Shown one piece after another: positions 17,538 through 36,293 of a stretch of DNA of 64,000 nucleotides. The stretch covers positions 124,001 to 188,000 of the forward strand of contig JAEUHM010000021.1 in the NCBI GenBank assembly GCA_016795485.1, given 5' to 3'. Numbering within the stretch: the stretch's first letter is position 1; each line of letters starts with the position of its first letter. Position numbers and translations under genes: made by a program. The notes beneath the pieces are model-generated. The model made no database searches. It saw only the letters and a list, made by a program, of their open reading frames with translations, and had not been told where the DNA came from. This DNA is from Verrucomicrobiaceae bacterium (GTDB lineage: Bacteria > Verrucomicrobiota > Verrucomicrobiia > Verrucomicrobiales > Verrucomicrobiaceae).

Positions 17538-20468
17538 ATGAACGCTTCATCACTCCTCAAATCCGCACTGTTCCTTTTGATTGCGGCTTCAACTCTCGCC
17601 ATCGATCCCGAGCCGGATGGGTATTTGAAAGCCTCCAATACCCGTTTTGGCTCCTACTTTGGTCAAGTGGTGGCTATCTCCGGCAGTACGATGGTGGTGG
17701 GCGCTCCCTATGAAGATGGAGCCAGCACGGGCGTGAATGGGGACCAGAACAACTTCAACGCCAGTGAGGTGGGTGCGGCCTACGTCTTCGTCCGTGTGGG
17801 TACCGAGTGGGTGCAGCAGGCCTACCTGAAGCCGGCTCGTTACAACAGTGAAGATCATTTTGGTGCCAGTGTGGCCATTTCTGGGGATACAATTGTCGTA
17901 GGTGCACCGGGGGAGGACAGCAATGCCAGTGGCGTCAATGGTGATGCGTCCAACAACACTTCGAGCCAATCTGGTGCGGCGTATGTGTTTGTGCGTCAGG
18001 GCAACAGTTGGATCCAGCAAGCCTACCTGAAGGCTTCCAACCCAGGAGACGGAGATGACTTCGGATTCTCCGTGGGTGTGGACGGAAACCTCATCGCGGT
18101 GAGTGCGCCAGACGAGGATAGCTCTGGCCGCGACATCAATGGCGATCAATCCACGAACAACGGCAGCGACAGTGGCGCAGTTTACATTTTTGCCCGCAAC
18201 GGCACTACCTGGACGCAGCATGCTTTCCTCAAAGCAGCGAATGCGGACATTAGTGATGCATTTGGATACTCTGTGGCCGTCTCGGGAGCCACCGTGGCGG
18301 TGGGCGCTCCGTTTGAGAAAAGCCGCGACACTGACCCCTCCGACAACACCGGGAATCATAATGGTGCGGTGTATGTTTTTGTCAGGAGTGCTTCGTCGGT
18401 CTGGACCCAGGAAGCCTATGTGAAGGCAGGTCAGTACGCAGACATCGGCGATGAGTTTGGCTTCAGCGTGGCACTCTCCAAGGACACGTTGGTGGCGGGG
18501 GCACCGCGGGAGGACGGCAAAGGCACCAAGGTCAACGGCCCAGAACAAGACAACAGCGTCTCGGACGCCGGTGCGGCCTATGTGTTCCATCGTCAGGGCA
18601 CGACCTGGAGTCGTCAGGCCTATCTGAAGGTGGGCAGCATCTTGTTCTTCTACTTGGACCCTGCAGTCAATATCCTGGATAAGTTCGGCTCAAGTGTGGC
18701 CATCTACGGTGAGCGTGTGGTGGTGGGCTGTCCTAACTACAATCTGGATATTCCGAACAACACGGACATCGGTGCGGCCTTTATCTATCAGAGGCAGGAT
18801 GCGGGCTGGGACTTCGTGAGTCAGCTTTATCCAGACCGTGGCACTTACTCGGGCTACTACGGTGATGAGTTCGGTTCATCTGTAGCGGTGTCAGATAAGT
18901 TCGCTGTGGTGGGTGCGCCGAAAGAGGACAGTCCCTCGAAAGGCACACACGGGGACCCTTCTCTTGGCGGGGAGAATGATTCTGGAGCGGCCTACACCTT
19001 CTTCGTGGGTCCGCAGGTAATCGGGATCGCCAAATCGGGGATGCCTGCTCCAGGTGGGCCGAGCATCGCATTTGGTAAGTTTGGCGAGGTCTGTGTGGAT
19101 GGGTCCGCCGCAGGCCAAGTGCTTTTTCGTTCCAGCTTGACTGGCCCCGGCGCTCTGGCTGGCCAAACGCAGGCTATGTTTGATGTGGAGTATCTCTCCG
19201 GCTTGTTGTGGATGTCCATGCGCACGGGCACTCCTGTGGGAGGAATGTTGGGTCTGCCTTCCTCAGCCAGGATATCCGCCCTCTCCAAACCGGTAAACAT
19301 CGGTGCTTACCGCCATGCCTACTATCAGGCCCAAGTGGGAACCAGCAAAGTGGTGCTCGTGGATGACGGCAACACCGTGCAGCCGGTCTTCCGCACGGGG
19401 ATGGCGATGCCCGCACTCAACAACGCCAGCATTTCCACCATCGTCGATATGCTGCCCGCCAGCGGCCAGTCGGAGCTGGCAGTGCATTACAAACTCAACA
19501 GCTCCACCGCTACGGACAGTGGCTTTATCATATTGGATAATACCGGGATGGTGACCAATGCCGGGCTGCGTGAGGGCAGTAGCTTCTTTGGCATGGGCAC
19601 GGCCAAGTTTGGCCAGATGGTGCGCGTGGCCCGTGGGTTCGGTGGTCCGCGCTGTATCGTTAAGATGCTCCCTGGCAACGGACAACCTGCCAAAGACACG
19701 GTGTGCTCTTTGACTGCTGCCCAGCCGACAATGCAGGGCGAACTCGCTGGCGATACCACCGCGGGCGAGCGCTACGGAACCTTCACCGGCATCGGGACCA
19801 TGGGAGCCTTCAGCTTGATCAAGGCCACCCTGACCAACAGCCCATCCAGCACCAACGAAGGGCTGTGGCTGGACAACGGGGTGCTCGTGGCGCGCAAGGG
19901 CCAGGACATTGGAGGCGGAGTGAAGATCGCCCGCTTCATCCGTGTGTGGGCCAATGACGCGCCGCACTACCTGCTGCACGTCGTGTTGAGCGGTCCTGGC
20001 GTCACCAAATCCAATAACGTGGCTCTGCTGCTCAAACCACACACCAGCACCAACTTCCAAGTCCTCATTCGCACAGGACTCCCCGTGCCAGGCATCTCCG
20101 ACCCCTCGCTCCGAGTGAGCAGCATCAGCGCCATCGACACGGCATCCGCAGGTGGTCACTACATGGTGCTCGCCACGACCACTGGACCCTCTTCCACCAA
20201 TCAGGTGCTCTTGGCCGGGCGAACGGTGTTGGGGGATAACTTCAACTACGCCTACGAGCGCCGACCTCAGTTGCTGTTGCGGAAAGGGGACAAAATCCAC
20301 ACCGCGTCCACGCCAGGCAGCACTGTGACGGGCATTTCCATTCGGCCTGTGCTCCACGCAAGCGGTGTGGGCAACTACGGCGAACGGCGGCAGGTCAACG
20401 CAGGGTTCGCAGCTGCTGTCGTCACCACCAGCGCCGGAACGCAGGAGCTCCTGCGCATTGCTTATTAA
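17538..20468 (+). CDS. Secreted FG-GAP repeat protein, paralogue 1
   Basis: A 976-residue exported protein with a signal peptide (residues 1-22). Residues about 25-490 contain seven FG-GAP-type blades. Each has the core D-x-F-G-x-S-V-A-I-S-G followed by VVVGAPxED and GAAYVFVR, consistent with an integrin-alpha-like beta-propeller. The second half (500-976) has no named domain. It repeats motifs such as RTGxxVPGI and NEGLWLDNGVLVARKGQDIGGG, which are shared with the neighbour at 20562 and, more loosely, with the C-terminus of the Gloeo_Verruco protein at 1775. It is a tandem duplicate of the next gene, with 93 bases between them. It is probably surface-located; ligand or role is unknown. Confidence 0.88.
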   Translation: MNASSLLKSALFLLIAASTLAIDPEPDGYLKASNTRFGSYFGQVVAISGSTMVVGAPYEDGASTGVNGDQNNFNASEVGAAYVFVRVGTEWVQQAYLKPARYNSEDHFGASVAISGDTIVVGAPGEDSNASGVNGDASNNTSSQSGAAYVFVRQGNSWIQQAYLKASNPGDGDDFGFSVGVDGNLIAVSAPDEDSSGRDINGDQSTNNGSDSGAVYIFARNGTTWTQHAFLKAANADISDAFGYSVAVSGATVAVGAPFEKSRDTDPSDNTGNHNGAVYVFVRSASSVWTQEAYVKAGQYADIGDEFGFSVALSKDTLVAGAPREDGKGTKVNGPEQDNSVSDAGAAYVFHRQGTTWSRQAYLKVGSILFFYLDPAVNILDKFGSSVAIYGERVVVGCPNYNLDIPNNTDIGAAFIYQRQDAGWDFVSQLYPDRGTYSGYYGDEFGSSVAVSDKFAVVGAPKEDSPSKGTHGDPSLGGENDSGAAYTFFVGPQVIGIAKSGMPAPGGPSIAFGKFGEVCVDGSAAGQVLFRSSLTGPGALAGQTQAMFDVEYLSGLLWMSMRTGTPVGGMLGLPSSARISALSKPVNIGAYRHAYYQAQVGTSKVVLVDDGNTVQPVFRTGMAMPALNNASISTIVDMLPASGQSELAVHYKLNSSTATDSGFIILDNTGMVTNAGLREGSSFFGMGTAKFGQMVRVARGFGGPRCIVKMLPGNGQPAKDTVCSLTAAQPTMQGELAGDTTAGERYGTFTGIGTMGAFSLIKATLTNSPSSTNEGLWLDNGVLVARKGQDIGGGVKIARFIRVWANDAPHYLLHVVLSGPGVTKSNNVALLLKPHTSTNFQVLIRTGLPVPGISDPSLRVSSISAIDTASAGGHYMVLATTTGPSSTNQVLLAGRTVLGDNFNYAYERRPQLLLRKGDKIHTASTPGSTVTGISIRPVLHASGVGNYGERRQVNAGFAAAVVTTSAGTQELLRIAY

Positions 20469-20561
20469 CTCATACCTCCGACCAAAGTCCTACTCCCTAG
20501 GTCCGATAGCGCCGCCGCCACACTGAACGCACCATTGGCACATCACTTTCGCCGCCCTGCC

Positions 20562-23432
20562 ATGAAGATCTCTTCTCTACTCATTCAATCGCTGCTGACT
20601 CTCTCGCTGTTCGTCTTTGTCGGCCGGGTTCACGCCTTTGATCCCATTTACGTCAACGATGCGCCTTTCCTCAAAGCCACCAACACGGCTGAGGATAGCT
20701 ACTTTGGCCGCGCTGTTGCGGTCTCCGGTTACACCCTGGCTGTTGGTGCCCCAAAAGAAGACAACAGCGCCACAGGCGTCAATGGCAACCAAGCCCTCGG
20801 CACTGCCATCAACTCAGGAGCCGTGTATGTGTACGTTAGAGATTTACTGGACCCTTCCTATTGGCGGCTCGAAGCTTACATCAAGGCACCGAATGCAGAA
20901 GCAGGTGATGGATTTGGCACGAGCGTGGCACTCCATGGCGACACACTCATCGTCGGTGCCCCACTGGAGAAAAGCAATGGCAGCAGCCAGACGGACAACA
21001 GCGCGGCTTCCGCAGGCGCGGCTTATGTGTATAAGCGCGTGGCCAACTCCTGGGTGTTCCAAGCCTACCTGAAAGCCTCCAATACCCAGGCGTACGACCT
21101 GTTTGGCCAGTCCGTGGCGATTGAAGGCAACACCGCTGTCATCGGTGCGTACGGCGAGGATGGCGGTGTAGGCGGAGTCAATGGAAACGACAATGACGAA
21201 AGCCAGTCCGGCTCTGGCGCGGCGTATGTCTTCGTTAGGAATGGTTCGGTGTGGAGCCAACAAGCCTACCTCAAAGCCGCCACACCTCTCCAAGGCGACT
21301 CTTTTGGCCTGAGCGTGGCCATCTCTGGCAATACCATCGTGGCGGGTGCCTATGGAGATGACTCCGGCGGCAACGATTCCGGTGCAGCTTATGTTTTTCT
21401 CCGCACAGGCAGCACCTGGACTCAGCAGGCCAAACTGAAAGCCGCAGTGCTTGATGCGTTGGACTACTTCGGCTGGGGCGTCAGCATCTATGGCGACTCC
21501 ATCGCGGTGGGCGCGCGCGGAGAGGACAGCAGCACCGCCGCCATCAATGGCAATCAAAACGACGACAGCCTCTCTGCCGCTGGAGCCGCCTACATCTTCA
21601 CCCGCACTGGCACCACCTGGGCACAGGAGAGCTACTTGAAGGCCACCTCGCCCCTCATGGACGGTTACTTTGGCACAGCGGTCAGCCTCTATGGCGACAA
21701 ACTCCTGGTGGGCGCTCCAGCCGATCCCGCAGGTGCGGGCAACGCGGAGTTGTATCTCTGCCGGGGCGGTTTGTGGACTTGGGTGAAGACCATCACCCAT
21801 CTGGACCCAAACGCTGGCGATGCTTTGGGCATCTCCGTTTCCATCGGTGAAAACTGGATGCTCGCGGGTGCAGAAGGCGATGACAGCAGCTCCGTCCAAG
21901 GCCCAAACTCGGAGGAATACAGTGCAGGTGCCACCAATGCAGGTTGTGGATTGGTTCATCCCGCTGGGGCGATCCTCACCGGATCAAGCAAAGCACGGAT
22001 GCCAGCTCCAGGAGCCTTTGACATCGCCTTCGGCACCACACGGGAAACAGCAGTCGGGCCTGGTGAGAACCTCCTCTATTCCAACAAGCTCACTGGCAAA
22101 GGTACGGCCAACGGAGGTGGAGTTGGGTTGTTTTCCCAGTTGGAGGAGATCACGGAAATGGTTCTCCAAACTGGTGCCTCCATGGGTGGTGCCATGGGAT
22201 TGCCTGCCACCGCCAGGGTGAGCAGCATCTCCCGGCTCTCTGCCAATCATGCGAGTGCAGGTAGCGTTTTCCTCGGCACCCTCAGCGGAACGGGTATCAC
22301 TGCGGCTAACAACACAGTGATGTTCGTGGACTACGGCACACATGTTTCACCGCTGTATCGCACCGGTCTCCAACTCGGCAGTGTGGGTGTGCCGGATCAG
22401 TTTCTCGACTTGGTTCAGGCGCACACTCTGGACCGCTTGTCGTTCATTTATCATCTTGGTGGAGGCGTCCTGCCAGATGTTGATACCGGTCTGCTCATGC
22501 TCAATCACGCCGGTGGCATCATTCTCTCCAGTCATCGTGAAGGCGCTGCTGCACCTGGGGGTGCTGGCTTTCTGGGTCAGTTTGTCCGCAGCACCTATGA
22601 CGGTACCTTCTTCAGCTATCAGGCCAAATGGATCGCCGCTTCCGGACAGCCGCCCAAGGACGCCCTCTTCAGTCTCAGCACCCGTCATGCGCCACTAGAA
22701 GGCGATCTCGCAAGTGGCACCACAGCGGGTGAGCGCTACGGCACATTCACCGGCATCACTCGCCGCAATACAGAGACCATCATCCGCGCCACGCTCACCG
22801 GCAGCCCCAGCGCCACCAACGAAGGCGTATGGAGCCAGGCCGGCACCCTGCTGGTGCGCAAAGGCGATCACATCGGGGGCGGTGTGAAGCTCGCCAAGCT
22901 CATTCGCGTTTGGGGCACCGACGGCAATCAACTCATCATCCATGCCGTGCTCACGGGCACCGGAGTCACCAGAGCTAACAACCAGGCCGTGCTCTGCAAG
23001 CCCGCCACAGGCAGCTTTCAATACCTCGCCCGCACCGGCAGCCAGTGCCCTGGCATGACACCGGGTTGCCGCCTGAAGAGCATCTCCGCTGTGGATGTGG
23101 ACCCCATCAGCAGCCGCTACGTCGTTCTGGCGAGTTTGAGCGGTGTGCCTGCTGGCTCCTCCCAAGCTCTGCTCAGCGGACGAACCACCTTTGGCAACGA
23201 CACCTTCCTCTCTGGGCTCCGTCTGCCCAACCTCATCCTCCGCAAAGGCCAGCACTACCACACCGCCGCCAGCATTACCGACACCATCACCGGCATCGCC
23301 CTCAAACCTACGCTGGACCCCAGCGGAGTCGGCGGTCGCGGCCTTGGACAAGTCATCGCGTCAGACGGCAGCATCGCAGTTATCATCAAAGGCCGCAGTG
23401 GCGCAGAAGAAGTTGTCCGCCTAACACCCTAG
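20562..23432 (+). CDS. Secreted FG-GAP repeat protein, paralogue 2
   Basis: A 956-residue paralogue of the protein at 17538 with the same layout throughout. A signal peptide (MKISSLLIQSLLTLSLFVFV, ending near VHA) is followed by seven FG-GAP blades (SYFGRAVAVSG, DGFGTSVALHG, DLFGQSVAIEG and so on). The C-terminal half carries AGERYGTFTGI, NEGVWSQAGTLLVRKGDHIGGGVKL and RTGSQCPGM. I chose the ATG at 20562 because it starts the signal peptide; the upstream in-frame Met at 20535 adds nine residues and no RBS. The pair probably arose by tandem duplication followed by substantial divergence. Downstream lies the REP-like mosaic. Confidence 0.88.
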   Translation: MKISSLLIQSLLTLSLFVFVGRVHAFDPIYVNDAPFLKATNTAEDSYFGRAVAVSGYTLAVGAPKEDNSATGVNGNQALGTAINSGAVYVYVRDLLDPSYWRLEAYIKAPNAEAGDGFGTSVALHGDTLIVGAPLEKSNGSSQTDNSAASAGAAYVYKRVANSWVFQAYLKASNTQAYDLFGQSVAIEGNTAVIGAYGEDGGVGGVNGNDNDESQSGSGAAYVFVRNGSVWSQQAYLKAATPLQGDSFGLSVAISGNTIVAGAYGDDSGGNDSGAAYVFLRTGSTWTQQAKLKAAVLDALDYFGWGVSIYGDSIAVGARGEDSSTAAINGNQNDDSLSAAGAAYIFTRTGTTWAQESYLKATSPLMDGYFGTAVSLYGDKLLVGAPADPAGAGNAELYLCRGGLWTWVKTITHLDPNAGDALGISVSIGENWMLAGAEGDDSSSVQGPNSEEYSAGATNAGCGLVHPAGAILTGSSKARMPAPGAFDIAFGTTRETAVGPGENLLYSNKLTGKGTANGGGVGLFSQLEEITEMVLQTGASMGGAMGLPATARVSSISRLSANHASAGSVFLGTLSGTGITAANNTVMFVDYGTHVSPLYRTGLQLGSVGVPDQFLDLVQAHTLDRLSFIYHLGGGVLPDVDTGLLMLNHAGGIILSSHREGAAAPGGAGFLGQFVRSTYDGTFFSYQAKWIAASGQPPKDALFSLSTRHAPLEGDLASGTTAGERYGTFTGITRRNTETIIRATLTGSPSATNEGVWSQAGTLLVRKGDHIGGGVKLAKLIRVWGTDGNQLIIHAVLTGTGVTRANNQAVLCKPATGSFQYLARTGSQCPGMTPGCRLKSISAVDVDPISSRYVVLASLSGVPAGSSQALLSGRTTFGNDTFLSGLRLPNLILRKGQHYHTAASITDTITGIALKPTLDPSGVGGRGLGQVIASDGSIAVIIKGRSGAEEVVRLTP

Positions 23433-24190: not shown

Positions 24191-25381
24191 TCAACTCGCT
24201 CCTGCGATGACCGGGAGCTTGGCGAGCCAGCGGTGGCCTAGGCGCGGGGTCCATTCTTTGGGCTCGGGGGTGGTGGCAAGATTTGGGAAGGCTTGGGCTA
24301 GGGCTTGGAAAGCGGTGGTCATTTCTAGCTTCACCAAGGGGCCTCCGATGCAGGAGTGTCTGCCTTGACCGAAGGCGAGGTGGCGATTGCTTTGCCGATC
24401 GGGCTGGAAGGTGTCTGGATCGGGGAAGGCTTCTGGATCGCGATTGGCTGAGCCGAAGAGGAGAAGGATGCCGGAGTTCTTGGGAATGACTTTGCCGTGG
24501 AGGGGGATGTCTTCTTTGGCCACGCGCCCGACGAACATGGCGGGGGATTCATACCGCAGGCACTCATCGACGACGGCGGGAATGACGGTGGGCTGCTCGG
24601 CCATGCGGCGCCAAAGGTTGTCTTCTCTGGGGAGGATGACGGAGGCTCCGTTGGCGATGGCGCGGTCGACGTTCTCCACTCCATCGGCAAAGAGGAGCAT
24701 GGCGGTGTCTACGATCTCGGCATCACTGAGGCCTGAGATGGCCAGGGCATGCATGAGGGAGCTGTCTGGGCTGCTGCGGACATGCGTTAGGCGGTGGCGA
24801 AAGTAGTCGCGGAACTGAGCAAGCGCTTGGTCAAGTTGATCGCGCACTTCTTTAGAGGGGATGATGGAGAAGAGGTAGAAGAACCAGTGGCTCCATTCCT
24901 TGAGTGCGGTCTCTTCTTCTCTGGGCACGCCGAGAGTGCGCCCTATGGCAGCGATGGCATAGGGAGTGGCAAAGTCGTGCAGAAGATCAAAACTTGTGCG
25001 TGCGCGCAGTGGAGCGATGAACTCTTCCGCTAGAGCCGCGAGGTCCGGTGGCTGGTGCCGCATCTGCCCAGCAAAGGCGCGGCCGATGAGACGGCGTGGT
25101 GTATCGTGCTCCGGTGGATCGAGGAACGGAATGATGTTGTTGGCTACATCAGCGCATAGGTAGCGGTGGCGATTGCGAGAGTTGACGACCGCATAGGGTG
25201 AAGGGGCGTTGCCTATGCGTGGATCGCTCAAGGCGGAGACGATGTCTGCATGGCGGGTGAGCGCCCAGACGCCTGCACTGTTGCGGTGGGCGGGGTCTTC
25301 CTGCCGGAGGCGACTGAGGAGGGGGTAGGGATCGTGGACAAAGGCCGCATCCAGCGGCTGAAGATCAAGCGTGGAGTGCAT
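24191..25381 (-). CDS. Cytochrome P450
   Basis: A soluble bacterial P450 of 396 residues, expected to oxidise a small or carrier-bound substrate using electrons from an unlinked ferredoxin system. Numbered from the ATG at 25381, the haem-binding loop AFGQGRHSCIGGPL has its Cys at about residue 344. The ExxR motif is ECLR in VVDECLRYESP, and the meander FGSANRDPEAFPDPDTFQPD is normal. In the I helix the usual G-x-D/E-T becomes G-V-E-N (LLFADGVENVDRAI), so the proton-relay Thr is replaced by Asn. I prefer 25381 to 25426 because it limits overlap with the amidohydrolase to 17 bases. It is the last gene of a three-gene operon, which suggests it tailors the product of the ligase/thioesterase upstream. 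Confidence 0.92.
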   Translation of the reverse strand: MHSTLDLQPLDAAFVHDPYPLLSRLRQEDPAHRNSAGVWALTRHADIVSALSDPRIGNAPSPYAVVNSRNRHRYLCADVANNIIPFLDPPEHDTPRRLIGRAFAGQMRHQPPDLAALAEEFIAPLRARTSFDLLHDFATPYAIAAIGRTLGVPREEETALKEWSHWFFYLFSIIPSKEVRDQLDQALAQFRDYFRHRLTHVRSSPDSSLMHALAISGLSDAEIVDTAMLLFADGVENVDRAIANGASVILPREDNLWRRMAEQPTVIPAVVDECLRYESPAMFVGRVAKEDIPLHGKVIPKNSGILLLFGSANRDPEAFPDPDTFQPDRQSNRHLAFGQGRHSCIGGPLVKLEMTTAFQALAQAFPNLATTPEPKEWTPRLGHRWLAKLPVIAGAS

Positions 25382-26501
25382 GGCCGGCACTGATGACGCT
25401 GAAGATTTGCTTGTCGTTGTTAGCAAGGTGGTCCTTCACTGCTTGCACCTGGGCAGGAGTGGGCATGACGCCGCAGGCAAGGCTGGCTAGGAGTTCTGGG
25501 TTGTAGTAGCGGATGGCGGCAGAGAGGGTGAAGACTTCGTCTGTGAGGTCAGCGGTAGTGCTGGGGGAGCACATGTCTGAGATATTGTCTGACCCAAGGC
25601 GGACGGGGATGCCTGCGGCAATCATTTCCAGCACTCTAGGAATGCTGTTGGTGGTAGGCGTCATGAGAGGACGGAGTTGTCTCATGCCAATGGCGGCGGA
25701 TGGGCAGGAGATGAGTCCCACCCCGAGTTCCAACATATTCTCCATGAGCCGCTGATGCCGCGCTTCGTCATAGGTGGCGGGCGATACCATGTGGACGACC
25801 CAGACTCGGGGCTCCTCGGTCATGGACTGGCCGTGGCCCTCCTGGCGCATGACTTCTAGCAGGCGCTCGGTGCCGCTCTCGCCGGGCTCATTGCGCTGAT
25901 CCGTGTGGACGTGGATCATTTTCCCATGCTCAGCCGAGAGGGCTAACATGCGGCGGCAGTGCTCCTCAAATCCAATATGGCCGGGATACTCGGAGAGCTC
26001 GTCTGACTCAGGAAGGGCTGAGATGAAGTCAGCGAGCTTGGTGCCTTCTTGGAAAAGCTCCCAGCGCTCCGGTTCATCTGCCGGAAATCCTAGCGGGGAA
26101 TAGCAGGCAACGCGGAGGTCAATCTTGTCTGCCCAGTCTTTTTTGATCTGGAGCATCGTTTGGAGTGCGGTAAGGCCCACGCGGTCAGCGGTGACGTCTG
26201 CCAAGGTGTCAACCCGGCGTGTGTTGACGTCTTGCATGACCTGAAGGTGAGCGCTGACGCGTGCGGTGAGGTCGTCTTGATCATACGCGGGGCCACGGTG
26301 CACCTCATAGATGAGGCGGTGCTTCTCGTGAAGGGAGATGTAGGACGTGTCTTCTACGCGGAGACCTACATCACGCCAATAGCGCTGGTCCATGGTACCA
26401 GCTCGGTCGAGATGAGTGTGGGCATTGAGGTAGCCGCCAAGACGGCGGACTTCGTCATCGAGTTCTCTGTAGAAGGGGGAAAGCAGTTGTGCAGGTGACA
26501 T
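25365..26501 (-). CDS. Amidohydrolase-superfamily protein (cytosine/adenosine deaminase-like)
   Basis: A 378-residue metal-dependent hydrolase. The first metal pair is the H-x-H in GGYLNAHTHLDRAG (residues 28 and 30). Next come a His-containing strand HGKMIHVHTDQRNEPGESG, another in VWVVHMVSP, and the Asp of VRLGSDNISDM near residue 300. This order fits deaminases acting on cyclic amidines or amide hydrolases of the cytosine deaminase group, but the substrate cannot be read from the sequence. It lies 23 bases behind the adenylation/thioesterase gene and overlaps the P450 by 17 bases, so it is firmly part of that operon and probably acts on the same small molecule. Confidence 0.82.
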   Translation of the reverse strand: MSPAQLLSPFYRELDDEVRRLGGYLNAHTHLDRAGTMDQRYWRDVGLRVEDTSYISLHEKHRLIYEVHRGPAYDQDDLTARVSAHLQVMQDVNTRRVDTLADVTADRVGLTALQTMLQIKKDWADKIDLRVACYSPLGFPADEPERWELFQEGTKLADFISALPESDELSEYPGHIGFEEHCRRMLALSAEHGKMIHVHTDQRNEPGESGTERLLEVMRQEGHGQSMTEEPRVWVVHMVSPATYDEARHQRLMENMLELGVGLISCPSAAIGMRQLRPLMTPTTNSIPRVLEMIAAGIPVRLGSDNISDMCSPSTTADLTDEVFTLSAAIRYYNPELLASLACGVMPTPAQVQAVKDHLANNDKQIFSVISAGHALHA

Positions 26502-26524
26502 GGTGAGGAGGTTTGAAATGCTTG

Positions 26525-29455
26525 TTAACTTCTGGGAGCGTGGATACTGACAGGGAGATGGAGCGGGGAGGACAGCTTGCGGGCGTTCTTGCGGTCGGAG
26601 AACCAGGTGACGCCTTCATTGATCATATCGACCTCCAAAGTGTTGAGTCCTGGCTTGGCTGGAGCGACAAAAGGCAGCAGGAAGTGGATAGTTTTCTTGC
26701 TGGGCACTATGCGGCGGAGTGGAAGGGACTCGCCTGGATCGCCAATGAGTTGGCCGTGTGCATCTCGCCAGCGGTAGCCGAGGTAGAGGCCGCTTTCGCT
26801 GGAGGGTAGCCAGTCGCTTTGGCTTTCATTGAAGACACGGACGTGAGCCCAGCCGCGCGCGCCTGCTTTGGCCACTTTCTGATGAATGAAGGAGGTGATC
26901 TGTGCCCGATGAGCTGCTGCTGGGGCCGGGGAGACGAGGTTCTGCCTGCGGAAGGGCTGCTCGCCGCTGAGCAGTGCCTGGAGACGCTTCACGTCCGGCT
27001 GGATGACCTCTGGGCTGAAGATCGCATTGTGAACAGCAGGTAACTCCGCTGCATGCCAGCCTGCGGGGAAGAGTCGGTCATAGCGATGCTCTGGCCGTGA
27101 GAACTTGCGCCTAACATCAAAGGACGATTCTTTGCAAAAACCGAGAGCGACTGGCACCTGAATGGGCTCCACGGGCATGAACTCATAGAGGATGAGCATT
27201 TTGATGCGGACACCGGCTTCCAGCAAGAACTGAGCTGCATCGTAAGCGATGCGCGCCCCGGCACAAAAGCCACCCAAGACGATCTCTCGCCCCTGATGAA
27301 CGGTAGCTACCTCATGCGCAAAGACACGGGCAAGGGCACGCTCGTCCTCGCGATTCTTGCCCTCGAACAAATAGAGAGACCGCAGTCCGTAGGTGGGTTG
27401 GTTGTTAGGCCAGTGATTGGCCAAGCCCTCAAACTCGCTCTGGCCCTGGACGCACCAGAAGAGAGGTGGGCCGGATGCCGATGCATTGCGACCAACGAGC
27501 AATGACTCTGCCGATGCGCGCTCTCCTGGCCACGTCTGCATGACGGCATGGAGGCGCACGAAGTATTCTGGATTCAATCCAGTGCCCGGCGGCGGCTGCA
27601 AAGTGGGTCGGGTATCTTGTGCGGCAGTGGTGCCTGCCAATTGATCCACATATGAGGCAAAAGCTCTGAGCGTGGGATGATCGAAGAGCGCTGCGGGACG
27701 TGCTGGAATGCCCAACTGCTTCTCAAGCTCCAGCACGAAGCTTGCAGCCCCCAGCGAGTCGCCACCGAGTTCAAAGAAGTCAGAGGCGCTGTCGGTCACT
27801 GGCACCCTCAACTCGCCCTCCCACAGGGCGGCGATCTTCTGCTCCGTGGCAGTGAGTTCACTTGAGTCCGTGCTCGCGGCGGTAGGCGAGTTTCCGCTCA
27901 GGGGTGTGAGTCCCTGCACCATCTCTGGCAGCAACCTACGACGAAGTTTGCCTCCTGGGCCACGCGGCAAGCTGCTAACAACATAGAACGCACGTGGAAC
28001 CTTAAACCAAGCGAGGCGCGAGGAGACGTGCGCGGTGAGTTCCGCAGCGGTGGCCGCAGTTGCGGGCTTCCAGACGATGGCCGCAGCGACCTCTTGGCCT
28101 AGCTCTGCATGACTCGCGCCAAACACGGCCACATCCTGAATAGCGGGATGACTGGCGAGCACATCGTCGATCTCTCTGGGCGAGACTTTCTCTCCACCGC
28201 GATTGATTTGATCTCCGATGCGTCCCGTGATGAAGAAGTAGCCTTCATCATCGCGGTAGCCCTCGTCACCCGTCTTCAGCCAGCCGTCCGGGGTAAAAAA
28301 CTCGTCATTGGCGCGGCCTTCATATCCGGTCATGACGCCCGCACCACGGACGAGGATCTCACCACGCTCGCCGGGGTGTTCCGCTCCCTGGATGGTGACT
28401 TCCATGCCATCTGTGGCGAGGCCTACCGAGCCGATCTTCCTTTGGCGTGGAGGCAGTGGATTGCTGGTGATGACCCCTGCGGTCTCCGTCATGCCATAAA
28501 TCTCGACCACGGGAGCACTCAGAGTGGACTCGATCTGCGCGAGCCAGTCTGGAGGCAGGGGCGAGGAGACGGAGCGGATGAATCTCAATGAGGCGCGCTC
28601 TGCTTTACCTGGAGTGAACTGCCTAACAACCTCATGAAGGAGTGTGGGCACACCTTGGAACCAAGTGGGCCTGCCGCTGTCTAACGCAGCATAGAACGCT
28701 GGCACCGACATCGTGTCTGGCCGCAGCACGCAGCCACCTACCGAGAGAGGAGCCAGCAGAAGGTCAACGATGGCCCCCACATGAAACATCGGCATCATGT
28801 TCAGGCAGCAGTCGGCATCACTGAGCGCAAGAGAGGCCGCCATGCGCCTGGCAGAGGCCGTGAGCTGTTGATGAGTGAGTGGAACGCGCTTCGGTCGCGC
28901 ACTGGAGCCGGACGTGAGCAGAATGAGAGCGGTATCCGTGGGCAAAGCCGGTGCACTCGATGCTGCATCGGGTGTGGGCCGACTTTGAGCTGTCCAGGTC
29001 AACTGGCCCGTCGTTTTGTCCCAATCGACTTCAATAATAGGCAATCCTGCACGTTCCGCCGCCGTCCGTGCCTCATTTGCTGCAATGCCGTGGGCGATGA
29101 GCACCTCAGCCCGAAGCTCCGGCACCAACTGGATCACTTCGTCAGCGCGCAGATCGGGATTGATGGGAGCACAGACCGCAGCCCGTGTGAGCGCCATTAG
29201 CACCATCGCCGTTAGGTGGCCATCTGGCAGGGCCGTCATGACCCGCGTCTGCCGTCCTATGCCCAGTGAGCGGAGGTTTTGCTCTGCCGTCTCAAGAAGG
29301 GAAGCGAGCTGGTCATGGCTCACGTTTTGGCAGTCATCCATGCCGACAATCGCCGCACGGGCAGGAGCCGAACGACACCCTACGGCAAGTAGATCAGCGA
29401 TCGTTTGGGCGGTAATGAGACTGCCTGTCATTAAGGAGCAAGAAGGGAGCCTCAC
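26525..29455 (-). CDS. NRPS-like adenylation-carrier-thioesterase protein
   Basis: A 976-residue multidomain enzyme. Residues about 15-510 are an acyl/aminoacyl-AMP ligase: P-loop TSGSSARPKR at 181, EIYGMTETAG at 318, GWLKTGDEGY at 391, and the C-terminal catalytic Lys in PRGPGGKLRRR at about 503. Residues about 535-605 are a carrier domain, with phosphopantetheine Ser567 in FFELGGDSLGAASF. Residues about 660-850 are an alpha/beta-hydrolase thioesterase whose nucleophile elbow is GGFCAG (Cys731 in place of Ser). Residues 865-976 are a beta-rich domain I cannot name. There is no condensation domain, so it should load, hold and release one acyl unit. The start is GTG at 29455 (GAGG nearby) or ATG at 29431. 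It heads the operon with the amidohydrolase and P450. Confidence 0.87.
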   Translation of the reverse strand: MRLPSCSLMTGSLITAQTIADLLAVGCRSAPARAAIVGMDDCQNVSHDQLASLLETAEQNLRSLGIGRQTRVMTALPDGHLTAMVLMALTRAAVCAPINPDLRADEVIQLVPELRAEVLIAHGIAANEARTAAERAGLPIIEVDWDKTTGQLTWTAQSRPTPDAASSAPALPTDTALILLTSGSSARPKRVPLTHQQLTASARRMAASLALSDADCCLNMMPMFHVGAIVDLLLAPLSVGGCVLRPDTMSVPAFYAALDSGRPTWFQGVPTLLHEVVRQFTPGKAERASLRFIRSVSSPLPPDWLAQIESTLSAPVVEIYGMTETAGVITSNPLPPRQRKIGSVGLATDGMEVTIQGAEHPGERGEILVRGAGVMTGYEGRANDEFFTPDGWLKTGDEGYRDDEGYFFITGRIGDQINRGGEKVSPREIDDVLASHPAIQDVAVFGASHAELGQEVAAAIVWKPATAATAAELTAHVSSRLAWFKVPRAFYVVSSLPRGPGGKLRRRLLPEMVQGLTPLSGNSPTAASTDSSELTATEQKIAALWEGELRVPVTDSASDFFELGGDSLGAASFVLELEKQLGIPARPAALFDHPTLRAFASYVDQLAGTTAAQDTRPTLQPPPGTGLNPEYFVRLHAVMQTWPGERASAESLLVGRNASASGPPLFWCVQGQSEFEGLANHWPNNQPTYGLRSLYLFEGKNREDERALARVFAHEVATVHQGREIVLGGFCAGARIAYDAAQFLLEAGVRIKMLILYEFMPVEPIQVPVALGFCKESSFDVRRKFSRPEHRYDRLFPAGWHAAELPAVHNAIFSPEVIQPDVKRLQALLSGEQPFRRQNLVSPAPAAAHRAQITSFIHQKVAKAGARGWAHVRVFNESQSDWLPSSESGLYLGYRWRDAHGQLIGDPGESLPLRRIVPSKKTIHFLLPFVAPAKPGLNTLEVDMINEGVTWFSDRKNARKLSSPLHLPVSIHAPRS

Positions 29456-29616
29456 TTGCCTCAGGGTTCAACCCTATTAGGCTGCTAGATTATTTGGATG
29501 GCTGAAGTTTTGCTTCCCGGCAGACCCCACGGCCAATCCCGCCCATGGCCCGGTGGATTTTCAATTTCAGTCCCATCACCTTGGCTTCTCCCGTGGGCCA
29601 ATTTTCCCCAGGAGGC

Positions 29617-29840
29617 CCAAACGACCGTCGTTTGGCGTGCTTTTTTTCCCAGGAGGCCCAAACGACCGTCGTTTGGCGTGTTTTTTTTCCCAGGAGGCCC
29701 AAACGACCGTCGTTTGGGGTGCTTTTTTTCCCAGGAGGACCAATCGACCGTCGTTTGGCATGCTTTTTTTCCCAGGAGGACCAATCGACCGTCGTTTGGC
29801 GTACTTTTTTTCCCAGGAGGCCCAAACGACCGTCGTTTGG
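29617..29840. repeat. Six 41-bp units of palindrome plus T-tract
   Basis: The palindrome CCAAACGACCGTCGTTTGG has 9-bp arms around a single C. It is centred at 29626, 29667, 29708, 29749, 29790 and 29831, exactly 41 bases apart. In units 4 and 5 the left arm reads CCAATCGAC, leaving one T-T mismatch. Between palindromes lie CGTGC (or close), a run of 7-8 T, and CCCAGGAGG. On the plus strand each unit therefore resembles a hairpin followed by a U-tract, though five bases separate stem and T-run. The gap 29456-30092 otherwise holds only a small AGGTTA-TTTT-TAACCT hairpin (29951-29966). Open frames through the array on both strands are repeat artefacts. Confidence 0.92.
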
Positions 29841-30092
29841 AGGTCTTTTTTTCGCCTGCGGGTGAAAAAAGATTGCGTTCTGGGGCGGGATTTCATTACG
29901 CTGCCGTCCGTAGCTTCCCTTTTTACTGTCGGGCGTTGCTTGGCGGGGGGAGGTTATTTTTAACCTTGTGGTTAACTTTCACCCTTTGCAGCGCTTAGAC
30001 TCGTGGCCCGGTTCGGACAGGCATTTTTCGGAGATGGTTCACGGTTTGGCGTTCAGGCGGTGGTGGTGCCACGCTTGCGACACAAAAGTATT

Positions 30093-32797: not shown

Positions 32798-35700
32798 CTA
32801 CGGCGCTACCCCAGGATGCAGTTCGATGAAGTAGCTCGTGCTGGCGCTGGGTCCCACGGCATAGCCGAAGGCGTTGGCGTCATTCTGCACCAGCACGCCG
32901 TAGAGCGGTATGGGTGCCGTTTTGGTGGTGGGCAGTTGGCCCGCTACGGGTAGGGCCGGGTGCGTGCCGGTGAAGACGCCCGTGGCCCGGTTGATCTTCA
33001 AAGTCAGTCCGTTCACCGCCGTCGTCAGCACCAGCAGGGGCGAGAGTTGGGCGTTATAGGCTGTGACCAGTGACGCACCGCCAAACCCTCGATCCACCTC
33101 CACATACATTGCGTGGTTGGTGGCCATGCCAGCCACCAGAGGCTCTCCCTGGATCGTTGGGGTGTAGCGTAGGAATGAAAAACTGCTCTGCCTGTTAAAT
33201 CCACCCGCCACGGACGCGGGCTTGGCAGGCGTCACGCCCGCCGGGCGGAAAATCTGGGCCGTTCCGCTGAAGTCTAGCCCGCCCCCATTCAACCCGCCGA
33301 ACAAAAGATAGCCCTTCTTGTTATAGAGCGGTATCCGCCCGCCAAAACCTATTCCCAATGCCGCACTGCCCCTCAGCCGTGTGCTGTAGGTGAACTTCGT
33401 CCCGTCATACAGGCCGCCAGTGACCTTCACCACGCCTTTGGACGTGATCTCTACCGCCATCACGCACACCAGGGTATCCACATCAAACATCCTCGCCGTG
33501 TAGCGTCCCACCGTTGCGGGTGGAGCCTGGTATTTCGTCGTGGGTGCCAGTTCGGCCACTGAACCGGCCGACTCGCCGGAGAAACTCGCCCCCGTCACCT
33601 TGGCCTGCAGGAACTCGTCCTGCGCTCCGCTCAGGGTTAGGTCCAGCGTGAAGGGCGGCAGGTTCTTGCCCGTCACCTGGATGGAAGCGGTCCGATTCTG
33701 CCCAAACTGGCCGCTGAAGGTGTATTTGGCTCCCTGGAAAGTGATCGTCCCGGTGAACTTGCCATTGCCCGTCAGATTCAGAGTCAGTTCAGACGCCCCG
33801 TTGTTGATGACGATAGGTGGCGCGGCACGCCCCAGAGGCGGTGGAGGCGTGGTGTCACCCAGATTCACCGAGAACTGCCCCGTGCCGAACGTCCCGAACT
33901 CAAACGCACCCACGTCCGCCTTGTCCTTGATGCCCAGGCCACGCTGATCACCCCCCAGGCTGGTTGTCGCCTTGTCGATGGCCGGGCTGCCCGCCAGGAG
34001 AACCATGGTGCGGGTAGGGCCACCGTTCTGAGCCAGAGCGCTCAGCATCGGGTCCACCGTCAGAGGAGCCGCCCCACTGAGCTTGCCACCGTGCACGGTG
34101 AGAATATTCGGCACGATGTTCACCCCTGCGGTGATCAGCCCCTTGTTCTGATCAAAAAAGTCATTGTTATTGGTCACATCATTCGGCATCAGCGGAAAGG
34201 CCGTGTTGCCGGAGATGATGGAGTCCGTCAGGGTGCAGTCATAGAGCAAGTACAGGCCACCACCGCCCTCCATCTCATTGGCCGTGTTGCCTGAGATGGT
34301 GCAATGCGTGATCTTCAGCACCGGCTTGCCCCCCGTAGGGAACTGATACTGATCTATCGCCCCGCCGAACATCGCCGAGTTGCCAGAGAACGTGCAGTTC
34401 TCCAGGGTGGCATGGCCCTGATTCAGCAGAGCGCCCCCACCGGAGTCCACCGGCGGCACGGCACCCACATTCGCTTGGTTGCCAGAGAAAGTACAGCGCT
34501 GGGCTTTCAGCGTCCCCACATTCACCACGCCACCACCGCCCATGGAGGAGGTATTCCCTTCCACCGAGCACTCGGTCAGCAGTAGGTTGCCATCGTTCCT
34601 GATGCCACCTGCCGCCGGGTCATTTCCATTTTTGAACGTCATCCGCCTCACCTCCAGCACCACACCAGAGAACACATCCATCAACTTCGTCCCCCCGCCG
34701 CCATCCACCGTCACTCCCGCGCTGTCTGCCGTGGGGGCGATGGCAGTCGCATCTATGATAAGCCTACCCGCCTTCACCTTCAGCGGCCCCAGGGCTGCAT
34801 TGAGGGCGATGGTATGGAAGAGGCCATTGAAAGCACTCGGGCTGAAGGTGATCGTGCTTCCATCCCCGGCATAAGTCAGCGCCTCTCTCAAAGAGATACC
34901 CGTGCCGTCGGGAGGGAAGTCATTGAGTTCATCCGTCGTCGTCGTCACCTCCACGCCCTTGCCCTGAAACGCAAACGTAGGAAACTCAAAGGCACCCACA
35001 TCACACTTCCCGCCCATCAGGCGTGGGCGGCCACACTGGTCCGACCCGCCGAGCAGACTGGGTGCCCGATCTATGGCCGGACTGCCCAAGCTCAGCGCTA
35101 TCGTCTGCGTACGCCCGTGATAGCTGTCCAGGGCGGCCAACTTGGCCTCTTTGATGGAGGTGGGGAGAATATTAGACTCACTGTCCACCAAGGTGAATGC
35201 ACCATCCGTCCGCTGGCTGGAAAGTTTCTGAATCATATTCACACCCCTCACCTGAAGCTTGGGCGGAAAAGGTGGATTCGGCGCGTTGGCAGCTACGAAG
35301 GAGCCCATCAACACATCCGCGCCACCTGCCGCATGCGGAGCCGAAATATTCCCCGTGATCAGACAGTTCTCCACCTTCACCGTGGCGTTCGGGCTGTTTA
35401 ACACCGCCAGTCCCCCTCCCCCCTGCACTGCCCTGTTATTAGTGATCGTGCAGTGGCTCAGAGTGCAGTTGCCGCTGAAGTCTTGGAGCAGGATCGCTCC
35501 ACCTGCCTGCATTGCATTCAGGCTCTTAGCTATGCCCACTTTGTTCCGCGTGAACGTCGAGTTGGTTATCTTCACCGTCCCTCCTCCTCCATAGACCACT
35601 AAGGCACCTCCCCCGGTGATGAGTGCGCTGTTAGATACATTGTTATCCCCACTCTCATTATCCACAAAAGTGCAGCGTGTGATCTCCACTGAGGTGCTTG

Positions 35701-36181
35701 GGCCCCCAGCCGCAAAAATCACGCTGCCGCCGGAAGATGCAAAGTTCCCAGAAAAGGTGCAGTCGCTTAGGTTGAGAGAGCAGTTTCGCTCCATGGTGAT
35801 CAATCCAATACTTCCAGCGTTGCGGAACGTCAGTCCCCGCAGGGTGAGGGAAGAACCTTGCATGACGTCAAAGGCTTTTCCCCTATTCGCATTCACCGTG
35901 ATGCCGTTGGGCAAACTCGTCGCATCGATCACCACATTAATTGTGCCATCGAATACCTCGCTTAATCTAATCACCCCGCCATCCAACGAGGGGGCAAACG
36001 TCACCTTCCCGCCACTGTTTCCCACGGCCGAGACGGCCTCCGTTAGTGTGACATCCGCACCAGACGGGACACTGAACTCATCATTAAGTAGCGTCGTGAC
36101 CACCGCATCCACCGCCCAGGCAGGCGAGGCGAGCGCGAAAAACGTAACCAGGGAGAGGCAGGGGAAGTGAAGCGTTTTCAT
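32798..36181 (-). CDS. Secreted right-handed beta-helix / choice-of-anchor Q protein
   Basis: An 1127-residue exported protein. From the ATG at 36181 it starts with a signal peptide (MKTLHFPCLSLVTFFALASP, cleavage near AWA). Residues about 30-400 and 410-770 are two parallel beta-helix regions with Pmp-like rungs (LSDCTFSGNFA, ITRCTFVDNES, LTECSVEGNTSSMGGGG, LENCTFSGNSAMFGG). Each helix ends with a choice-of-anchor Q motif: LGSPAIDRAPSLLGG...CDVGAFEF and AGSPAIDKATTSLGG...ADVGAFEF. The C-terminal 330 residues carry the beta-rich module also seen in the protein at 13755 (LKINRATGVFTG). The upstream in-frame start at 36208 would precede the signal peptide and is unlikely. Surface adhesin or polysaccharide-binding roles are possible; neither is shown. 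Confidence 0.87.
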   Translation of the reverse strand: MKTLHFPCLSLVTFFALASPAWAVDAVVTTLLNDEFSVPSGADVTLTEAVSAVGNSGGKVTFAPSLDGGVIRLSEVFDGTINVVIDATSLPNGITVNANRGKAFDVMQGSSLTLRGLTFRNAGSIGLITMERNCSLNLSDCTFSGNFASSGGSVIFAAGGPSTSVEITRCTFVDNESGDNNVSNSALITGGGALVVYGGGGTVKITNSTFTRNKVGIAKSLNAMQAGGAILLQDFSGNCTLSHCTITNNRAVQGGGGLAVLNSPNATVKVENCLITGNISAPHAAGGADVLMGSFVAANAPNPPFPPKLQVRGVNMIQKLSSQRTDGAFTLVDSESNILPTSIKEAKLAALDSYHGRTQTIALSLGSPAIDRAPSLLGGSDQCGRPRLMGGKCDVGAFEFPTFAFQGKGVEVTTTTDELNDFPPDGTGISLREALTYAGDGSTITFSPSAFNGLFHTIALNAALGPLKVKAGRLIIDATAIAPTADSAGVTVDGGGGTKLMDVFSGVVLEVRRMTFKNGNDPAAGGIRNDGNLLLTECSVEGNTSSMGGGGVVNVGTLKAQRCTFSGNQANVGAVPPVDSGGGALLNQGHATLENCTFSGNSAMFGGAIDQYQFPTGGKPVLKITHCTISGNTANEMEGGGGLYLLYDCTLTDSIISGNTAFPLMPNDVTNNNDFFDQNKGLITAGVNIVPNILTVHGGKLSGAAPLTVDPMLSALAQNGGPTRTMVLLAGSPAIDKATTSLGGDQRGLGIKDKADVGAFEFGTFGTGQFSVNLGDTTPPPPLGRAAPPIVINNGASELTLNLTGNGKFTGTITFQGAKYTFSGQFGQNRTASIQVTGKNLPPFTLDLTLSGAQDEFLQAKVTGASFSGESAGSVAELAPTTKYQAPPATVGRYTARMFDVDTLVCVMAVEITSKGVVKVTGGLYDGTKFTYSTRLRGSAALGIGFGGRIPLYNKKGYLLFGGLNGGGLDFSGTAQIFRPAGVTPAKPASVAGGFNRQSSFSFLRYTPTIQGEPLVAGMATNHAMYVEVDRGFGGASLVTAYNAQLSPLLVLTTAVNGLTLKINRATGVFTGTHPALPVAGQLPTTKTAPIPLYGVLVQNDANAFGYAVGPSASTSYFIELHPGVAP

Positions 36182-36293
36182 AAGCATAAAGTCCGCCACC
36201 GCAGGCACCGCGCCCTAGTGGCCGTGAGAACTACCCCATTAAACGCCCCTTCCCGAAAAAAATGAAGGTCTTTTTCCGCTACAGTGGGTCATT

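Follow-up and report, generated by a model that had tools for sequence, protein, structure and literature searches.

Cytochrome P450s that hydroxylate carrier-bound amino acids exist, and P450BioI acts on chains bound to an acyl carrier protein. Among thioesterases (TEs) with a cysteine nucleophile (Cys-TEs), ObiF and SulM have known products and both close four-membered rings; in these two enzymes the catalytic Asp is relocated, and in AB3403 the Cys is found with an ordinary Asp (PMC6668435, PMC11298585). Within the amidohydrolases, the residue correspondence between the cytosine deaminase CodA and AtzC (PMC4577212) and the roles of the CodA Asp, His, Glu and Gln residues (PMC12828455) have been described. 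Here we describe a three-gene cassette that combines relatives of these parts, found in a 64,000-nucleotide stretch of a Verrucomicrobiaceae genome (GCA_016795485.1, contig JAEUHM010000021.1, positions 124,001 to 188,000), referred to herein as the window. The cassette lies on the minus strand and encodes a synthetase with adenylation (A), thiolation (T, or carrier) and TE domains (26525-29455; 976 aa from a GTG start, with an ATG available at codon 9), an amidohydrolase (25365-26501; 378 aa, with its ATG at 26501 and its stop at 25365) and a P450 (24191-25381 counted from the ATG at 25381; a TTG at 25426 opens the longest frame). Between the end of the synthetase and the amidohydrolase ATG lie 23 bp, and the amidohydrolase and P450 overlap by 17 bases. 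An earlier sequence-only reading had given the same three frames, gap and overlap, and its coordinates match ours.

The cassette recurs in distantly related bacteria. When 59 genomes of the family were searched in six frames, full-length synthetase relatives appeared in only two others, and the same two, out of 50 searched, carried the amidohydrolase. Both hold all three genes in the order seen in the window, with identities of about 55% for the synthetase, 75% for the amidohydrolase and 74% for the P450, the P450 of one being cut off at a contig end. No close copy of the amidohydrolase was found in 386 other genomes of the phylum (387 searched), where the remaining matches reached at most 28% identity. 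A scan of GTDB species genomes with the amidohydrolase alignment yielded 14 loci: four in Verrucomicrobia (including the two same-family genomes with all three genes), one in Planctomycetaceae, and the others in Alcanivoracaceae, Zhongshania, Psychrobacter, Hydrogenophilaceae, an Aromatoleum bin, Devosia, Pseudooceanicola and two other Rhodobacteraceae. One further locus lies on a Gemmobacter plasmid, and four more came from running amidohydrolase profiles against sets of 369 and 295 genomes, each set built around a genome already found. With the window this makes 20 loci in Verrucomicrobia, Planctomycetes and Alpha-, Beta- and Gammaproteobacteria, a lower bound since the GTDB scan relied on two short exact patterns.

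At 17 of the 20 loci the synthetase adjoins the amidohydrolase or has just the P450 in between (window, L022, L027-L032, L034-L038, L040, L060, L061, L063), the P450 is adjacent at 14 (window, L027-L032, L034, L035, L038, L060-L063), and all three genes stand together at 13. These 13 loci support the earlier proposal of a conserved unit and exclude the circumstance that would have spoken against it, namely that the genes are rarely adjacent elsewhere; as they span several phyla and classes, chance adjacency was also rejected. The arrangement varies: the synthetase is oriented facing the P450 and amidohydrolase in L032, L034, L060 and L061, and L063, read in reverse, has the amidohydrolase, synthetase and P450 in that order on one strand. 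About 4 kb separate the synthetase from the amidohydrolase in L039. L033 is the only locus for which no synthetase was found; it is a 6-kb contig from a binned genome, and the amidohydrolase sits near its end. Since the amidohydrolase was the sole bait for the four profile-search loci, co-location in them was not selected for; the P450 was adjacent in all four and the synthetase in three, and the fourth (L062, genome G1048) has its synthetase elsewhere in the genome.

Flanking genes are mostly not common between loci, and no further conserved cluster genes were seen, the shared neighbours being miaB-like or otherwise housekeeping-looking. For 10 loci, the pairwise distance matrices of the three proteins are correlated (Mantel r of 0.86, 0.79 and 0.91, reached by at most 0.0002 of permutations). 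Given the differing flanks and the correlated distances, the three-gene unit appears to travel together, and its sporadic spread over phyla and the plasmid copy point to horizontal transfer of the cassette.

Two forms of the cassette can be distinguished. In the first, the P450 is present and the TE is usually followed by a C-terminal beta domain; the second (L022, L036, L037, L039, L040) has no cassette-type P450 next to it. Genomes G447 and G448 gave no P450 match at 1e-40, and G450 and G451 gave only distant matches (at most 221 bits, whereas cassette P450s that are intact scored 467-527 bits in this search). In L036, L037 and L039 a different C-terminal region carries a GTSAG- or GTSGG-like motif instead of the Cys-TE, and L063 is without the Cys motif despite having the P450. 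Because the P450 and the Cys-TE vary between forms, the amidohydrolase and the A-T synthetase are the most constant pair, and because this pair persists where the P450 is missing, we regard it as the core and the P450 as a tailoring part. The amidohydrolase is the most conserved of the three, at 44-75% identity where the synthetase shows 30-55%. Sulfotransferase-like genes, some of them weak matches, lie near the P450-less cassettes of L022 (6149-7183), L037 (14041-14766) and L040 (9029-9895).

The synthetase, identified by Pfam and with full-length relatives in 18 loci, scored above the Pfam gathering thresholds for AMP-binding, AMP-binding_C and PP-binding, as did the P450 gene for p450, and Pfam placed no condensation domain in it. 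Its A domain (residues 17-513; 27917-29407) retains the adenylation core motifs, with Gln267 and the catalytic Lys503 invariant in all 18 relatives. The nearest solved relatives of the domain, in the PDB, are oxalyl-CoA (coenzyme A) synthetases (AAE3 and Pcs60; 252 bits), and the nearest curated ones, in NCBIfam, are FadD7-type ligases (330 bits, where the cut-off is 650). The ten specificity positions of the window read HVIQISIGVK. The first of these, the Asp235 position, which binds the alpha-amine in amino-acid-activating domains, is His in 18/18 relatives (His225 in the window). Oxalyl-CoA synthetases and FadD7-type ligases share this His, but the cassette domain differs from them in several pocket residues and in being fused to a carrier and a TE. 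Another genome of the family (G400) encodes an A-T-C-A-T non-ribosomal peptide synthetase (NRPS; L026, 7448-12577) whose first A domain is 37-38% identical to that of the cassette and sits at the starter-acid position, which we count in favour of the reading given below. Taken together, the His in place of Asp, the acyl-CoA-ligase relatives and this starter-position relative suggest that the loaded substrate is probably a carboxylic acid lacking an alpha-amino group.

The T domain (residues 536-606; 27638-27850; PP-binding, 59 bits) carries the phosphopantetheine Ser567 in a GGDSL motif, and this Ser is intact in 18/18. The sequence-only reading had named an ordinary acyl-CoA ligase with a decayed carrier as the finding that would undo it. 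The ligase type is borne out by the relatives of the A domain, but decay of the carrier is not, and we rejected this candidate given the retained Ser. The domain content also agrees with the earlier suggestion that one acid may be activated on one carrier without a condensation step.

The TE (residues about 635-840; 26936-27553) had likewise been proposed, and is supported by relatives and by the predicted structure: the window synthetase itself scores 15.6 bits for Thioesterase, below the cut-off of 26.4, and a relative in L029 scores 45.4. In the predicted TE model (mean predicted local distance difference test, pLDDT, 89.2) the domain matched NRPS and polyketide synthase thioesterases with Z of about 16-18 over about 170 residues, at a root-mean-square deviation mostly of 2.6-3.7 Å. 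The nucleophile is Cys in 14/14 members (Cys731 in the window), and an acid (Asp or Glu; Glu758) and a His (His809) are also present in 14/14. The predicted structure and alignment place the acid at the ordinary position, immediately after the strand that succeeds the nucleophile helix. The domain therefore has the Cys nucleophile and TE fold of ObiF, SulM and AB3403, but in ObiF and SulM the catalytic Asp is on a later strand, and the cassette enzyme differs from all three in having a single module, no condensation domain and an extra C-terminal beta domain. Judged from the model, ring closure by this TE is possible but not favoured, given the ordinary acid position. The roughly 120 residues C-terminal to the TE are predicted to fold as a beta-rich domain of their own (residues about 850-970; 26546-26908) that is present in most three-gene members; a Foldseek search with the whole TE model returned rows that include GH3 beta-glucosidases and a Wzt protein.

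The amidohydrolase scores 24.8 bits for Amidohydro_3 in the window, below the cut-off of 29.7, and its assignment is supported by its relatives and by its predicted structure. Cytosine deaminase and AtzC are the nearest matches to this model (mean pLDDT 87.2), with Z of about 30-33 over about 285-305 residues. In sequence alignments, His28, His30, His199 and Asp305, the inferred metal ligands, and His237, the equivalent of the catalytic His, are invariant in 19/19. Fold and metal ligands are thus like those of CodA and AtzC; however, CodA Glu217, Gln156 and Asp314 align with Gln202, Pro136 and Asn306 of the cassette enzyme, and AtzC His219 and Lys65 with Gln202 and Arg33. Gln202 and Pro136 replace Glu217, the proton shuttle of CodA, and Gln156 in 19/19 amidohydrolases; the residues with which CodA recognises cytosine are replaced. 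With the metal site kept and the CodA Glu and Gln replaced, this is an intact-looking subtype-III-type enzyme and not a cytosine deaminase, an identity we rejected because both of these catalytic residues are replaced. The best curated match, NCBIfam NF005365 (PRK06886), at 160.9 bits is far below its cut-off of 340 and is itself annotated as a hypothetical protein, without an assigned function. The CodA/AtzC fold makes it plausible that, as the sequence-only reading suggested, the enzyme edits a cyclic or amide group.

Among solved structures, a profile built from 11 cassette P450s matched P450BioI (CYP107 group) best, at 285.8 bits, ahead of a second at 256.1 bits. The heme-binding FxxGxxxCxG motif with its Cys (Cys359 in the window) is present in 12/12 sequences covering the region, and the I-helix position that is usually Thr is Asn in 13/13 (DGVEN in the window). 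The cassette P450 resembles the acyl-carrier-protein-dependent P450BioI as its top solved match, but differs in this Asn and in its linkage to an A-T-TE synthetase rather than to biotin genes. The P450 seems well placed to act on a carrier-bound substrate, as had been suggested. A P450-derived glycosyltransferase activator (TIGR04515, the best NCBIfam match) was rejected at 164 bits against a cut-off of 343, with the heme Cys present. The window genome holds one other P450. In Devosia rhodophyticola (L032, 11043-12346) the cassette P450 is broken into two overlapping frames, either by a frameshift or by a sequencing error.

We give roughly even chances to the reading that these genes form a self-contained, horizontally moving cassette that makes one small metabolite on a single carrier. 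Judged from domain types, the A domain would adenylate a carboxylic acid without an alpha-amino group and load it onto the phosphopantetheine of the T domain, and the P450 may then oxidise the carrier-bound acyl group in the manner of P450BioI. The chain would pass to Cys731, a nucleophile identified from sequence, and might be released to water or another nucleophile. In the least certain step, the metal-dependent amidohydrolase would cut a C-N or similar bond, either in making the loaded acid or in processing the released product.

Other readings draw on the same evidence. The sequence-only reading had emphasised amino acids: one would be activated, the P450 would oxidise it on the carrier (beta-hydroxylation, for example), the TE would release it and the amidohydrolase would edit it. 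All of the A, T, TE and P450 parts are present and P450s acting on carrier-bound amino acids are known, but an A domain nearest to oxalyl-CoA synthetases and FadD7-type ligases, with His at the alpha-amine Asp position throughout, argues against it, and we consider it unlikely. Also unlikely is a role of the amidohydrolase in self-protection or turnover, in which it would inactivate an active compound made by the synthetase and, where present, the P450. Its position as the most conserved gene, and its persistence beside the synthetase in loci without the P450, would be expected of such an enzyme; however, a biosynthetic step would also fit the high conservation, and no transporter or other resistance gene was seen common to the loci.

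A catabolic operon, in which an N-heterocycle or amide is broken down and carrier loading replaces CoA, would account for the CodA/AtzC-type fold and the ligase-like A domain. We think this very improbable, as the carrier Ser and the fused TE are retained throughout, although catabolic CoA ligases need neither, and no ring-cleavage, beta-oxidation or uptake genes are common to the loci. Equally improbable is closure of a strained ring, a beta-lactone or similar, by the Cys-TE after the P450 hydroxylates the carrier-bound acid. The invariant Cys, the precedent of ObiF and SulM (PMC6668435, PMC11298585) and a P450 that could provide the hydroxyl are consistent with it, but the acid is at the ordinary position in 14/14 rather than relocated as in those enzymes, AB3403 also pairs Cys with an ordinary acid, and the P450-less L022 and L040 retain the Cys.

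Several points weigh against the single-carrier cassette reading itself. Beside the observed gene order, recurrence, conserved catalytic residues and correlated divergence, the substrate, the order of steps and the product are what we infer, and the amidohydrolase step cannot be read from sequence. The A-domain specificity positions were mapped by hand from motifs, and the link to P450BioI is nearest-relative evidence only. Co-divergence partly reflects host kinship, so that it supports joint transfer without proving it. Priming of the carrier is uncertain, because the only phosphopantetheinyl transferase found in the window genome is a 128-aa AcpS (C27:5977-6264, L041), on which the priming would have to depend, no Sfp-type enzyme being detected there with PF01648.

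The cassette is an orphan built of known parts, a variant of NRPS-like clusters. The literature searched, which took in neither subscription papers nor MIBiG, yielded no pathway with an A-T-TE, amidohydrolase and P450 set, and one may exist elsewhere. More tentatively, and with some doubt, we suggest that the cassette may make an undescribed class of small carrier-derived metabolite, in which a CodA-like amidohydrolase and a Cys-TE act on one acyl unit with tailoring by a BioI-like P450, a combination with no characterised precedent, and that it moves between distant bacteria because its product is useful in many hosts.

The genes around the cassette are unrelated to it. They include two tandem, apparently paralogous proteins of 976 and 965 aa with seven FG-GAP_2 repeats apiece (17538-20468 and 20535-23432), on the opposite strand, and a 1136-aa right-handed beta-helix protein with weak similarity to the Chlamydia PMP repeat (32798-36208). 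Some 150 bp upstream of where the synthetase begins, a 41-bp unit is repeated six times in tandem (29602-29853), each copy containing the near-palindrome CCAAACGACCGTCGTTTGG, which matches 12 times on the two strands together (0.01 expected by chance) and occurs nowhere else in the window.

As about 5 kb seems to encode one complete carrier-based pathway, retained in very different bacterial hosts, the cassette should be unusually easy to reconstitute. Reconstitution would reveal the role of a CodA-like amidohydrolase in natural-product assembly and that of a Cys-TE on a single acyl unit, and the 20 loci provide test cases that can help to name an amidohydrolase family that lacks an assigned function.

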